64,000 nucleotides of DNA from an uncultured Brevundimonas sp. (GTDB taxonomy: Bacteria; Pseudomonadota; Alphaproteobacteria; Caulobacterales; Caulobacteraceae). Shown in pieces: positions 9,487 to 20,099 of the stretch. Numbering within the stretch: the first letter of the stretch is position 1; each line of letters starts with the position of its first letter. The notes under the pieces are model-generated. The model was not told the DNA's origin and made no database searches. It saw nothing but the letters and a program-made list of their open reading frames with translations. The position numbers were made by a program, and so were the translations under genes. Where the stretch lies: the NCBI RefSeq assembly GCF_947305955.1, contig NZ_CAMZFB010000009.1, positions 1 to 64,000 of the forward strand, read 5' to 3'.

Positions 9487-11995
<2,509 letters not shown>

Positions 11996-12013
11996 GCGCC
12001 CATCCGCAAAATC

Positions 12014-12038
12014 GGGGCTCTCCACATGGGAGGGCCCC
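12014..12038 (+). terminator. Weak hairpin after katG
   Basis: GGGGCTCTCC (12014-12023) pairs imperfectly with GGGAGGGCCCC (12028-12038), 18 bases after the katG stop. It is followed by a C-rich stretch and only later by AAAAAATTTTG, so efficiency is doubtful. Confidence 0.4.
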
Positions 12039-12074
12039 ACCCCTTCCCCCATAAAAAATTTTGAACTTAAGCCG

Positions 12075-12983
12075 ATGAATCCCTATGTCGGCTCTATGCT
12101 CCCCTCACTCAGACAACTTCAGTATCTCAAGCTGCTTGCCGAGCATGGCTCCTTCAGCCGTGCCGCAGAGGCGGCCCACGTCAGCCAGCCTGCATTGTCT
12201 TCCGGTGTTCAGGAGCTGGAGCGTATTCTTGGCGCGCCGGTGGTAGAGCGCACGCGTGGTGCCGTTCTTCTGACCGCTGTCGGTGCCGAGGCCGTCAAAC
12301 GCGCCGAAGATGTTCTGGCCCGTACCGAAGATCTGGTCGAGGCCGCCCGCAATGCCGGAAAGCCGCTGTCGGGCCGTTTCCGTCTGGGCGTGATCCCGAC
12401 CGTGGCCCCCTATCTGCTGCCGCAAAAGCTGACAGGTCTGCGCGATCAATACCCTGCCCTTCGCCTGTTTATTCGCGAGGATCTGACGCCCAAGCTGATC
12501 GCGGGGCTGAAGTCCGGACAACTGGACGCTGCGGTCATCGCCCTGCCCTATGACGCGCCGGGCATCGACCACGCCCATATCGCCGATGATGAAATCCTCG
12601 CGGCGGCTCCTGTGGGTCATGCGCTCGATGGCGAAGGTCCGATCCCGCAGGGTGCCCTGCGCGCCGAGGATCTGATCCTTCTGGAAGACGGACACTGTCT
12701 GCGTGATCAGGCTCTGGCCGCCGTCAACATCGAGGCCCCGCGCGGCGAGGACGTCTTTGCCGCCACCACCCTGCCGACCTTGGTCCAGATGGTGTCATCC
12801 GGCCTTGGGGTCAGCTTCCTGCCCCAGATGGCGGTCACCGCGGGCCTGACGGACAATAAGGGCGTGGTTGTGCGCCCGATTTCCGAAGACGCCCCCCACC
12901 GCGAAATCGTGGTGGCATGGCGTTCGGGGTCCAGCCGCGCCGCCGAGGCGCAACTGCTGGCAGAAGCCCTTAAGATCTCCTGA
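12075..12983 (+). CDS. oxyR: OxyR-type LysR regulator with a single cysteine
   Basis: A LysR protein with the N-terminal winged HTH (LPSLRQLQYLKLLAEHGSFS region) and a periplasmic-binding-like sensor domain. The OxyR redox motif is recognisable as LEDGHCLRDQAL: C208 here corresponds to E. coli C199. The partner cysteine nine residues on (E. coli C208) is replaced by V217, and no other cysteine exists in the protein. The start may be the ATG at 12075 or at 12096 (giving MLPSLRQL); neither has a strong ribosome site. The position after katG supports a peroxide-response role. Intramolecular disulfide switching is not possible with this sequence. Confidence 0.88.
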   Translation: MNPYVGSMLPSLRQLQYLKLLAEHGSFSRAAEAAHVSQPALSSGVQELERILGAPVVERTRGAVLLTAVGAEAVKRAEDVLARTEDLVEAARNAGKPLSGRFRLGVIPTVAPYLLPQKLTGLRDQYPALRLFIREDLTPKLIAGLKSGQLDAAVIALPYDAPGIDHAHIADDEILAAAPVGHALDGEGPIPQGALRAEDLILLEDGHCLRDQALAAVNIEAPRGEDVFAATTLPTLVQMVSSGLGVSFLPQMAVTAGLTDNKGVVVRPISEDAPHREIVVAWRSGSSRAAEAQLLAEALKIS

Positions 12984-12993
12984 TTACAGGAGA
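12976..12993 (+). terminator. Short hairpin overlapping the oxyR stop
   Basis: TCTCCTG (12976-12982) pairs with CAGGAGA (12987-12993) around ATTA, enclosing the oxyR stop codon and followed by ATTTG. It is a short stem with a weak tail, so only a possible terminator. Confidence 0.4.
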
Positions 12994-13148
12994 ATTTGTC
13001 ACCCAGCATTCGAACGTACGACGTACATCGAATACCGTTCCGGTGACCCTCTATTGCGACCCTATTCTTTATGTGGGAAAGGCCTCGCACACATATTTTG
13101 GCGGCCTTTTGCGAGGCTGTCGGGGATACCACACACAGGTCAACGCTG

Positions 13149-15731
13149 ATGCTGCAACACTATCGCGAACACGTTGCCGAACGTGCGGCTCTGGGCATTC
13201 CGCCCCTGCCGCTTTCGGCCCAGCAAACTGCTGAACTGATCGAACTGATCAAGGCTCCGACCGCCGAAGCGTCGTCGGAAGAACTGATCGAGCTGCTAGC
13301 TCACCGTGTTCCGCCGGGCGTTGATGACGCCGCCAAGGTCAAGGCCTCCTTCCTGTCGGCTGTGGCCCACGGCGACTTCGAGGTTCCGAACCTGTCGCGC
13401 GAATACGCCACGCAACTGCTGGGCACCATGGTTGGTGGCTATAACGTCAAGCCGCTGATCGACCTGCTGTCGGACGAAGTGGTCGGCACCGTCGCGGCCG
13501 AGGGTCTGAAGAAGACCCTGCTGATGTTCGACTTCTTCCATGACGTGAACGAACTGGCCAAGGGCGGCAACGCCAACGCCAAGGCCGTGATCCAGTCGTG
13601 GGCCGACGCCGAATGGTTCACCTCGCGCGACAAGGTCGCCGAGAAGATCACCGTCACCGTCTTCAAGGTGACCGGCGAGACCAACACCGACGACCTGTCG
13701 CCGGCACCGGATGCTTGGTCGCGTCCGGACATCCCGCTGCACTATCTGGCCATGCTGAAGAACGCACGTCCGGGCATCACGCCTGAACAGGACGGCGTCC
13801 GCGGCCCGATCCAATTCATCGAAGACCTGAAGAAGAAGGGCCACCTCGTCGCCTACGTCGGTGACGTTGTCGGCACCGGCTCGTCGCGTAAGTCGGCCAC
13901 CAACTCGGTGATCTGGGCCACCGGCCAGGACATCCCGTTCGTGCCGAACAAGCGCTTCGGCGGTGTGACCCTGGGCGGCAAGATCGCCCCGATCTTCTTC
14001 AACACTCAGGAAGACTCCGGCGCCCTGCCGATCGAAGTCGACGTGACCAACCTGAACATGGGCGATGTCATCGACATCTACCCGTACGAAGGCAAGATCG
14101 TGAAGGACGGAGAAACCGTCGCCACCTTCGAGCTGAAGTCGCAGGTCCTGCTGGACGAAGTCCAAGCCGGTGGCCGTATCAACCTGATCATCGGCCGTTC
14201 GCTGACCGCCCGCGCCCGTGAGGCTCTGGGTCTGGCTCCGTCGACCGAATTCCGTCTGCCGGTCGTGCCGAACGACACCGGCAAGGGCTACACCCTCGCT
14301 CAAAAGATGGTCGGTCGCGCCTGCGGCCTGCCGGAAGGCCAAGGCATCCGTCCGGGCACCTATTGCGAACCGCGCATGACCACGGTCGGCTCGCAGGACA
14401 CCACTGGCCCGATGACCCGCGACGAGCTGAAAGACCTCGCCTGCCTCGGCTTCTCGGCCGACATGGTGATGCAGTCGTTCTGCCACACCGCTGCCTATCC
14501 GAAGCCGGTCGACGTCAAGACCCACCGCGAACTGCCGCACTTCATCTCGGATCGCGGCGGCGTGGCCCTGCGTCCGGGCGACGGCGTGATCCACTCGTGG
14601 CTGAACCGCCTGCTGCTGCCGGATACGGTCGGCACCGGCGGTGACTCGCACACCCGCTTCCCGATCGGCATCTCCTTCCCGGCTGGCTCGGGTCTGGTCG
14701 CCTTCGGTGCGGCCACCGGCGTGATGCCGCTGGACATGCCGGAGTCGGTTCTGGTGCGCTTCAAGGGCGAAATGCAGCCGGGTATCACCCTGCGCGACCT
14801 CGTCCACGCCATCCCGTACTACGCCATCAAGCAAGGTCTGCTGACCGTCGCCAAGGCTGGCAAGATCAACGCCTTCTCGGGCCGCATCCTCGAAATCGAG
14901 GGCCTGCCGAACCTGAAGGTCGAGCAAGCCTTCGAACTGACCGACGCCTCGGCTGAGCGTTCGGCTGCCGGTTGCACCGTCAAGCTGAACAAAGAGCCGA
15001 TCATCGAGTACATGACCTCGAACATCGTGCTCATGAAGAACATGATCGCCGACGGCTATCAGGATGCCCGCACCCTGCAACGCCGTATCGACGCCATGGA
15101 AGCCTGGCTGGCCAACCCGAACCTGCTCGAAGCCGATGCCGACGCCGAATACGCGCACGTCATCGAAATCGATCTGGCCGAGATCAAGGAGCCGATCCTG
15201 TGCGCTCCGAACGATCCGGACGATGCCCGCCTGCTGTCGGAAGTGCAGAACACCCAGATCGATGAAGTCTTCATCGGTTCGTGCATGACCAACATCGGCC
15301 ACTTCCGCGCCGCCTCGCTGCTGCTGAAGGGCAAGAAGGACATCCCGACCCGTCTGTGGGTCGCCCCGCCGACCAAGATGGACGCCTCGGAACTCACCAA
15401 GGAAGGTCACTATTCGACCCTCGGCGGTGCTGGCGCCCGTATGGAAATGCCGGGCTGCTCGCTGTGCATGGGTAACCAGGCTCAGGTGAAGGAAGGCGCG
15501 ACCGTGGTTTCGACCTCGACCCGTAACTTCCCGAACCGTCTGGGCAAGGGCTCGAACGTCTTCCTGTCGTCGGCCGAACTGGCCGCCGTGGCCTCCAAGC
15601 TGGGCCGCCTGCCGACCGTGGAAGAGTACATGGCCGAAATGGGCGTCATCAACGAGAACGCCGCCGACGTGTACCGCTACATGAACTTCGACCAGATCGA
15701 AGAGTATGCGGACCGTGTTGCTGCTGAGTAA
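13149..15731 (+). CDS. acnB: Aconitate hydratase B (AcnB), also 2-methylisocitrate dehydratase type
   Basis: A 860-residue AcnB that interconverts citrate and isocitrate using a [4Fe-4S] cluster. The AcnB-specific layout is clear: N-terminal HEAT-like domain, swivel domain ([29 protein letters not shown]), then the catalytic domains with cluster cysteines in [10 protein letters not shown] and [10 protein letters not shown]. The ATG at 13149 is chosen because it gives [14 protein letters not shown], matching known AcnB starts; an upstream in-frame ATG at 13071 would add 26 residues without homology. Possible operator dyads (GTACG-A-CGTAC at 13016-13026) precede it. Caulobacter-type genomes often rely on AcnA, so a second aconitase here is notable. 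Confidence 0.97.
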
Positions 15732-15740
15732 GCCCTAGGC

Positions 15741-15795
15741 TCAACGGTTAGCGTTGAAATGAAAAGCCCCCTCGGATCACTCCGAGGGGGCTTTT
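15741..15795 (+). terminator. Strong terminator after acnB, preceded by a small hairpin
   Basis: TCAACG-GTTAG-CGTTGA (15741-15757) is followed by a strong stem of 14 pairs: AAAAGCCCCCTCGG (15762-15775) with CCGAGGGGGCTTTT (15782-15795) and a T-run. It is a textbook intrinsic terminator for acnB and separates it from the convergent A+T-rich operon. Confidence 0.9.
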
Positions 15796-15814
15796 TAAAA
15801 CTCGACTTAAGTGG

Positions 15815-16006
15815 TCAGGCAGCTTCTAGAGACTTTTTGAGCCGCGCTTTGTCTTTGGCTTCTTTAGCTTTTTGGGCGGCGAGTTGCGCTGACTTCACTG
15901 CTATTTCTCGTGCGAGATCTGCTGCTCCACCGTTGCCCCGATACAGCTTGGCAGCACGGGCAGTTAATTCGTCATACATGTTTGACCCCTCTGCGTATCG
16001 TTCCAT
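15815..16006 (-). CDS. Small basic protein, second gene of the A+T-rich operon
   Basis: I do not recognise this gene. From the ATG at 16006 it encodes 63 residues, beginning MERYAEGSNMYDELTARAAK and ending in an alanine/lysine-rich, probably helical tail (QLAAQKAKEAKDKARLKKSL). There is no signal peptide or membrane segment. The start lies one base after the stop of the GAF gene (TAA-C-ATG) and a GAGAAAG ribosome site sits inside the end of that gene, so translation is probably coupled. This coupling is the main evidence that it is real. It could be a nucleic-acid-binding or partner peptide, but nothing proves that. Confidence 0.65.
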   Translation of the reverse strand: MERYAEGSNMYDELTARAAKLYRGNGGAADLAREIAVKSAQLAAQKAKEAKDKARLKKSLEAA

Positions 16007-16007
16007 G

Positions 16008-16985
16008 TTAGTCTTTCTCACGAAGATTATTAAGTGATAAAAGCGTTGCAAGTGTGTTGCTGAGGTGACGAATAGGTCGGACAGCTTCGTCTTCAGTGCC
16101 ATCTTCTTTAGGCACAAAACGCCCAGGTTGGTCACTGGTTGCAACAACCACCCCTAGAGGTAGGCTTGAGGGGTGCGATCCAGATAGTTGGATGGGGAAC
16201 GACGCAATCGATCTGTATTTTTTTGCATCTTCCCCATTTGGGGGCTGCTTATCGATTGGTGCATCGAAAAGACCCCGGACATTTGGGTCAAGTGTGTCGG
16301 AGATAACTATAGCTCGCTTACTTGCGAAAGTTTTCCCTACGTGACCTTCGCCACTTAGCCAGCTTCGATGGGGCTTATCTTCATCAGCCTTAGTTGGTCT
16401 ACGACAAGCCACGCATTTAAGCTGTTGAGATGATGTGTCCCATAAATATATAGAAAAATTCCATTGCTCGTCCTTCATTCCAAAAAGGCTTTCTTTTGAC
16501 GCAGATAGAAGGTCTAGCAGAGCTATGTATTCTTCTTTTAGTTCTTTGCTATCGACATCTAGTAGATGGCTATCTATAGCTTGTCTCATAATATCGATTG
16601 TCATCGTTGAGATAGATGTCTTTTCAATTTCTTTAGTTAATGCTTCGTTTTCCTGCTCAATTTCTATAAGCTTTTGTTCAAATTCTGCCAGGTCTTCCGC
16701 AGATTTTTTGGCATCTTTAAATATAGTTAGAGAAGATGTTTCTGTAATGAGTAACAATAACGCTACCAATGCGCCCGTGATAATAAATATGATTTGCGCC
16801 GTAACGGCACTTGCTTTTAAAGCTTCCCCAGCATCGCTTTCTGCTATTTTTGCTACAGCAGTTAGGACGGGAAGCAATATTAAGCTAATCTGAAGGCACT
16901 TTCGTAGCGTTTTTATTGCGCTTAGAAAGTTCGCAATATGAATATCTAGGTTCTTGCGTGCACTTACCGATTTGGCGTCGACCAT
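16008..16985 (-). CDS. Two-TM, coiled-coil, GAF-domain sensor protein of unknown function
   Basis: A 325-residue protein with two hydrophobic segments (about residues 31-47 and 62-81), a charged coiled-coil stretch (about 90-125) and a C-terminal GAF domain (about 150-320; SGEGHVGKTFASKRAIVISD is the typical GAF core). A CxxC pair (C191, C194) lies early in the GAF domain and could be a redox or metal site. The ATG at 16985 is preceded by a strong GGAGGGGAAGG site; a longer in-frame start lacks one. The gene is much richer in A+T than its neighbours: three 60-base stretches (16501, 16561, 16741) are 37-40% G+C, which suggests recent acquisition. No output domain is fused, so signalling may pass through the membrane or the 63-residue partner. 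Confidence 0.8.
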   Translation of the reverse strand: MVDAKSVSARKNLDIHIANFLSAIKTLRKCLQISLILLPVLTAVAKIAESDAGEALKASAVTAQIIFIITGALVALLLLITETSSLTIFKDAKKSAEDLAEFEQKLIEIEQENEALTKEIEKTSISTMTIDIMRQAIDSHLLDVDSKELKEEYIALLDLLSASKESLFGMKDEQWNFSIYLWDTSSQQLKCVACRRPTKADEDKPHRSWLSGEGHVGKTFASKRAIVISDTLDPNVRGLFDAPIDKQPPNGEDAKKYRSIASFPIQLSGSHPSSLPLGVVVATSDQPGRFVPKEDGTEDEAVRPIRHLSNTLATLLSLNNLREKD

Positions 16986-17058
16986 ACCTTCCCCTCCCCT
17001 AAAGCGGTACGTAACCTGCGTCGCAACTCCTGTCGACAAATCATCGGTATTTTAGAGC

Positions 17059-17201
17059 AAAGGCCCGAGGATTGCTCCTCGGGCCTTTCTGTTGTGCGGG
17101 TTTCGCATTCTTAGTGGGGCCGTGGTCAAAAGGCTCCGCCTTTTCGACCCGACACGGCCCGTCTTTGTGGGCCGCGATCGTCGGCCCCCGTGGGGGCCGA
17201 C
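17059..17201 (-). terminator. Three-hairpin array downstream of acnA
   Basis: Leaving acnA on the minus strand one meets GTCGGCCCCC/GGGGGCCGAC (17180-17201), then a 44-base double-arm hairpin with outer GGGCCGTG (17117-17124)/CACGGCCC (17153-17160) and inner AAAAGGC/GCCTTTT arms, then a 13-pair stem AAAGGCCCGAGGA (17059-17071)/TCCTCGGGCCTTT (17076-17088). The last is the likely terminator and works for both strands. The same three-part layout, with different sequence, follows mdh. Confidence 0.7.
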
Positions 17202-17215
17202 CGACCCGACGTGGC

Positions 17216-19915
<2,700 letters not shown>

Positions 19916-20099
19916 GTGAGGGTCCTCTGACAAATGCCGCCCGGAAATTCGGTTGCACCTTCGCGCGTCGGACGAAAGGGCACACAGGTCCCTTGCGCGC
20001 GCGGCGAAAGCCTGCTGCGGCGTATTGGCATATAAGCATGCCCGTGGGGCACGTCCATGTATCCACACACATGACGGGGATATTGAGAGAGGTTCGCAA

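Follow-up and report, generated by a model that had tools for sequence, protein, structure and literature searches.

The window analysed here, a stretch of 64,000 nucleotides from an uncultured Brevundimonas sp., contains two aconitase genes facing each other, and the gap between them is occupied by just two further genes, encoding a putative membrane-anchored GAF protein and a small helical partner. The features of the locus, in coordinates of the window, are the following:

13071 to 15731, plus strand: second aconitase, which we take by recognition to be of the acnB type; convergent neighbour of the pair
15760 to 15797, no strand assigned: hairpin that terminates acnB and marks the left edge of the exchanged segment
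15815 to 16006, minus strand: gene of the small helical partner, 63 residues, C-terminus LEAA
16008 to 16985, minus strand: gene of the two-transmembrane (2TM), coiled-coil and GAF protein, putative membrane effector or sensor, 325 residues; homologs share the architecture
16011 to 16541, minus strand: GAF domain and flanking helices, residues 149-325, from the model, structural matches and motifs
16404 to 16415, minus strand: CVAC motif, C191 and C194
16746 to 16802, minus strand: second transmembrane-like segment (TM2), residues 62-80, continuous with a long helix that reaches residue 142, from hydropathy and the model
16842 to 16898, minus strand: first transmembrane-like segment (TM1), residues 30-48, from hydropathy
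17059 to 17088, no strand assigned: hairpin that terminates acnA and marks the right edge of the exchanged segment
17216 to 20068, minus strand: acnA-type aconitase, given as the longest reading frame; the true start is probably near 19918

The A+T-rich island between the aconitases, which the original prediction had read from the sequence, is real: the GAF reading frame, which is intact, has a G+C content of 0.43 with local minima of 0.35-0.40, as compared to a median of 0.635 for the 58 genes of the window and a next-lowest value of 0.58. The GAF gene ends a single base ahead of the start of the small gene. A promoter of the island's own had been proposed as well, but was not found, the only candidate being one weak site within the gene, where 1.7 would be expected by chance. 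The proposed terminators do exist as two strong hairpins; they must however be assigned to acnB and acnA and not to the island, since they are also present in relatives carrying other cargo. It may be added that katG, a LysR-type regulator gene, acnB and acnA are grouped at 9803-20068 of the window.

An acnB-type aconitase is found in 10 of 121 genomes of the genus, always convergent with acnA, and the gene may for reasons of this rarity itself have been acquired. The gap measures 0.8-3.6 kb in these ten genomes, both acn terminators are retained in all of them with the cargo sitting exactly in between, and the cargo differs in each of the ten Brevundimonas genomes sampled (loci L063-L072). 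Thus one gap (G005) holds an MT-A70 methyltransferase and a BglII endonuclease (Pfam 1e-28 and 8e-25; PADLOC MTase_II 3e-129), that of B. pishanensis (G024, also L084) holds an oppositely oriented GAF pair with 27-29% identity to that of the window, and others hold a TonB receptor, MFS/LysR genes, a FAD dehydrogenase and further genes, some of the cargoes being of native composition. DNA homology to B. pishanensis, with flanks of 91% and 86% identity, breaks off at 15799 and sets in again at 17060, and homology to a second genome (G088) breaks off at 15796 and sets in again at 17049. Since sister-species homology stops and resumes at the acn terminators, these form the borders of the exchange site, and the acnB/acnA gap is an exchange hotspot of Brevundimonas, of which a literature search returned no earlier description. 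The proposed look at synteny in strains lacking the pair accordingly gives a clear result, namely that most relatives lack the pair at this place and that sister species have unrelated cargo there, enclosed by the same terminators.

The architecture of the larger protein was examined in an AlphaFold2 model built from ten homologs (mean pLDDT 78). In this model a helix of residues 2-48 contains TM1, a helix of residues 54-142 comprises TM2 and extends as a long cytosolic helix, and the GAF core strands (175-284) are followed by a C-terminal helix. Residues 117-325 of the model match solved GAF domains (Foldseek E 2e-7) and align to 5hl6_A with a VIA-align Z of 18.3 over 157 residues, by which the GAF fold is confirmed at the level of the model, and the description of the protein as membrane-anchored, with two hydrophobic segments ahead of a GAF domain, can be upheld. 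Both hydrophobic segments recur in the hydropathy profiles of intact relatives, with the exception of one relative in which only the second exceeds the threshold. GAF_2 matches in Pfam are as strong as 7e-6 among relatives, the window protein itself scoring under the Pfam cut-off (E 0.032), and the motifs RxW-xx-GxGxxG and GV-xxx-TS are invariant in the GAF domain of the family. According to the model and to weak sequence matches the fold is that of Pfam GAF/GAF_2, NifA-like NLH1, PtsP and the fRMsr GAF structures, but the family differs from these in its membrane anchor, its lack of an output domain and of conserved catalytic cysteines, its RxW-xx-GxGxxG motif and its linked small partner. 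The best viral structural match is a "membrane protein" of Gordonia phage Finkle (A0A9E7NJ10 in BFVD; Foldseek E 6e-8), where the alignment spans most of both proteins at 12% identity and with poor global superposition (rmsd 10.9).

The CxxC noted earlier in the GAF domain is indeed present in the window copy, as CVAC at residues 191-194, but it is not a property of the family, as the alignment shows it in a minority of members and most relatives lack it. This bears on the notion that the protein uses this motif to sense redox state or iron-sulphur status in connection with the two aconitases, a notion which could draw on the CVAC, on the position between two aconitase genes and on the nearby katG and LysR genes. 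Such a function is however highly improbable, since the motif is confined to a minority and since no more than 2 of about 20 loci have aconitases close to the pair, namely those in the window and in B. pishanensis, where the copies are as divergent as stated above and oppositely oriented. In addition, the same gap is filled by eight other unrelated cargoes. The special link to Fe-S dehydratases that had been suspected is thus contradicted by the family survey.

The small gene is a selected protein-coding gene under purifying selection. Its counterpart in the genome G1016 likewise has 63 codons and follows its GAF gene at a spacing of one base, and the two align free of gaps at 59% amino acid identity, with 25% of first, 25% of second and 70% of third codon positions differing, a pN of 0.24 and a pS of 0.89. 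The small proteins are otherwise so strongly diverged that pairwise comparison often fails, but in a leave-one-out profile test 16 of 20 rank in the top 2 among 1784 decoy reading frames, the commonest top decoy being a reading frame in the L080 locus that is probably a degenerate second copy. They make up one diverse family. The frame in question (L080, 1537-1698, plus strand) is short, scores like a degenerate duplicate of the partner and has other duplicated remnants nearby.

A reading frame of 57-79 residues is found directly downstream of the GAF gene in all 18 intact loci, starting from 29 bases before to 76 bases after the end of that gene, and an intact GAF gene devoid of a partner was never seen among these 18. 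It could be argued that the small frame has arisen by chance next to a decaying GAF insertion, considering that it is short, that about 21% of control genes are followed by a frame of similar size and that the B. pishanensis relative carries a stop codon in its GAF gene. This explanation is nonetheless scarcely credible and can be considered refuted by the selection on the small gene and by the family test; furthermore the same length and spacing recur in G1016 and the GAF frame of the window is intact. Conservation of the small frame has thereby been established, whereas its designation as a small basic protein holds for the window copy (net charge +4) and has to be rejected as a family trait, since charge varies from -7 to +9. 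In its model the small protein takes the form of a helical hairpin (helices 8-22 and 27-62), and a PDB search with the profile of the family gave no relatives.

By means of profiles the 2TM-GAF protein could be traced to Hyphomicrobiales, Caulobacter, Roseibacterium, Ruegeria, Marinicaulis, Sphingomonas and others, although a single-sequence search of genome contigs had returned no relatives. It is present in 9 of 328 Caulobacteraceae genomes, and a set of 385 Alphaproteobacteria genomes gave two clear cases besides the window. A 444-residue protein (G183) and matches in frames of 767-893 residues were set aside as other GAF proteins. The single locus outside the Alphaproteobacteria (L088 in G578) has a GAF copy of 40% G+C beside selB in a high-G+C genome, and the 69-residue frame that follows it has no recognisable similarity to the other partners. 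Four prophage-like viral contigs of IMG/VR carry the pair according to a 16-sequence profile, an earlier scan with a 4-sequence profile having given no match, and searches of plasmids and isolated phage genomes found no relatives. Depending on the viral contig, the pair is accompanied by Mu-like transposition and head genes, by genes for a terminase and for head-tail proteins, by a tape-measure protein gene, or by a large serine integrase gene, the last together with repressor and Rha genes. On these counts the pair is a widespread but rare module, and the database search suggested for it has thus yielded both consistent pairing and viral carriage. The original proposal of a transferred two-gene module finds good support in the foreign composition, the absence from the site in most relatives, the replaced cargo and the carriage by prophages. 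It also withstands both observations named in advance as refuting it, since the pair is not generally present at this place in relatives and the small frame is conserved. On the Mu-like contig a 462-residue protein is encoded beside the pair (L119, 6029-7417, minus strand); its N-terminal helices are hydrophobic, it matches a trypsin-like domain (PF13365, 2e-7), and its gene is perhaps another cargo or defence gene.

Several copies are found in the company of defence genes. The pair of G174 adjoins SspC (4e-190), SspD (5e-134) and PbeC (2e-265) of the DNA phosphorothioation defence system, that of G1016 is flanked by a phage terminase gene on one side and an nSTAND1 ATPase gene (4e-9) on the other, a truncated GAF copy in Ruegeria (L079) is fused behind a fragment of Druantia DruE (1e-41), and a degenerate copy (L082) has a C5 methylase gene and a Panacea antitoxin gene nearby. 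However, the loci of Caulobacter OR37, Marinicaulis, Sphingomonas and G578 lie between housekeeping genes with no recognised defence neighbours, and the defence association is for this reason one of company and not of function. The defence-like character claimed for the module can accordingly be retained as regards its neighbours (a restriction system, Ssp/Pbe, DruE, nSTAND and prophages) but not as regards what it does. A tRNA scan placed a tRNA near the pair in a few loci only.

The positions between housekeeping genes, of which there are many, would suit a commonplace pair of accessory proteins for membrane signalling, such as a sensor of stress or nutrients with an adaptor, spread by transfer and devoid of any conflict function, and it should also be mentioned that GAF domains are common sensors and that the pair contains no recognised nuclease or toxin. 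We nevertheless consider this unlikely, as the pair has no output domain, kinase or cyclase to signal through, and as its patchy rarity, strong divergence, prophage carriage and repeated location beside defence genes would be out of the ordinary for a housekeeping sensor.

With respect to described systems, no family in Pfam, NCBIfam, PADLOC or PHROGs lies above cut-off for either window protein, the PADLOC (2023) models give no match to either at E values up to 5, and the pair is not described in any searched database of known systems. Its layout is that of toxin-antitoxin loci in general, with adjacent or overlapping genes of which one is small and which are kept together as a pair. The only case that literature searches for GAF defence systems returned is toxFtsLD9 of Gelidibacter mesophilus, a membrane-located GAF-domain toxin of 281 residues with predicted transmembrane helices, whose long α-helical part dimerises at the membrane and which is toxic to E. 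coli by blocking cell division and is neutralised by the Panacea antitoxin PanA (PMC10440598). Judged by architecture, toxFtsLD9:PanA may be regarded as the nearest described case, since the window protein by hydropathy and model shares the transmembrane helices, the long helix and the GAF domain, and is likewise encoded beside a partner gene. The partners are however different, that of the window family being a helical hairpin of 57-79 residues with no recognised domain. As the window partner has no match to the Panacea domain (PF13274), nor to any other known antitoxin domain, the pair does not belong to the Panacea systems in their described form, and a Panacea gene was seen only near the degenerate copy mentioned above.

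The arrangement of two transmembrane helices with a long helix after them is also reminiscent of SLATT effectors (PF18181), which are predicted to be nucleotide-responsive pore formers (PMC7159879), that is, membrane effectors gated by small-molecule signals, although the fusion of a GAF domain to the 2TM part sets the window protein apart from these systems. The best SLATT score, 16.5 bits (E 0.009) against a cut-off of 26.3, was obtained for the B. pishanensis copy read through its stop, and the profile matches neither the window protein nor any of 10 aligned family members. Since this score is below the cut-off and no nucleotide cyclase is present, membership of SLATT is not claimed; neither a cyclase (SMODS) nor a SLOG gene lies beside the window pair. 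These observations are relevant to the possibility that the two proteins work jointly in phage defence or superinfection exclusion. A molecule linked to infection would then be sensed by the GAF domain and the membrane altered by the 2TM part, with the small protein serving as activator or adaptor subunit and not as antitoxin. The constant pairing, the prophage cargo and the defence islands would agree equally with such a system, as would the SLATT-like match and the fact that the GAF fold of solved relatives binds nucleotides and other small ligands. We regard it as the less probable interpretation, although not by far the least, because the SLATT match is subthreshold and limited to one of the scanned members, because a cyclase is missing beside the window pair and because intact partners next to broken GAF genes are better suited to an antitoxin.

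The latter point stems from two loci, these being the two in which a damaged GAF gene is followed by readable DNA. The GAF gene of B. pishanensis has a stop between TM1 and TM2 and that of the Ruegeria locus is truncated, and in both the small gene is intact. A broken GAF gene with an intact partner, and never the reverse, is the asymmetry that a toxin and its antitoxin would be expected to show, and although there are only two such cases it points in this direction. So do the C-termini, which read A[AVSG] in 11 of 20 small proteins as compared to 11 of 139 control genes, a feature noticed post hoc and among related sequences. Antitoxins are short-lived, and the tails resemble degradation tails of the ssrA type. 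As for the stop in B. pishanensis, it is an in-frame TAG in the GAF gene at positions of about 105-318 of the gap (L063).

In view of the damage asymmetry, the C-termini and the toxFtsLD9 case, a GAF-gated membrane effector restrained by a small protein is favoured here. That the pair is a horizontally exchanged two-gene conflict module of the toxin-antitoxin or abortive-infection type we propose tentatively and at a little below even odds, as several loci between housekeeping genes and a partner lacking a known antitoxin domain speak against it. More broadly, we assign a probability of about 0.5 to the pair representing a family of phage-defence or toxin-antitoxin systems, not described so far, from Proteobacteria and their prophages, in which a GAF-gated 2TM effector is held in check by a dedicated helical-hairpin inhibitor subject to regulated degradation, and which in Brevundimonas is exchanged between the aconitase terminators. 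The larger protein, with its two transmembrane helices, long signalling helix and cytosolic GAF domain, would then be a membrane effector harming or halting its own cell. The partner of about 65 residues, translated from the same message, would bind it and keep it inactive, and the alanine-rich C-terminus of about half of the family may render the partner short-lived. Release would then follow either from binding of a small molecule to the GAF domain, be it nucleotide-like or some other infection signal, or from loss of the partner, and protection against phage may be the outcome. If so, the family would add to bacterial conflict systems both a class of membrane effectors that carry their own ligand-sensing domain and a new family of small partners, and it would provide a compact two-gene construct with which to ask what is sensed by a GAF domain in the course of infection.

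The gap between acnB and acnA, for its part, is a simple and recognisable address at which to look for more accessory or defence genes in Brevundimonas. One gap (L067 in G169) encodes a 420-residue PLD-like protein with weak similarity to DrmC (4e-5), and another (L064 in G088) an A+T-rich orphan of 180 residues with no match in Pfam or PADLOC. In several genomes the palindromes of the two acn terminators have a similar core.
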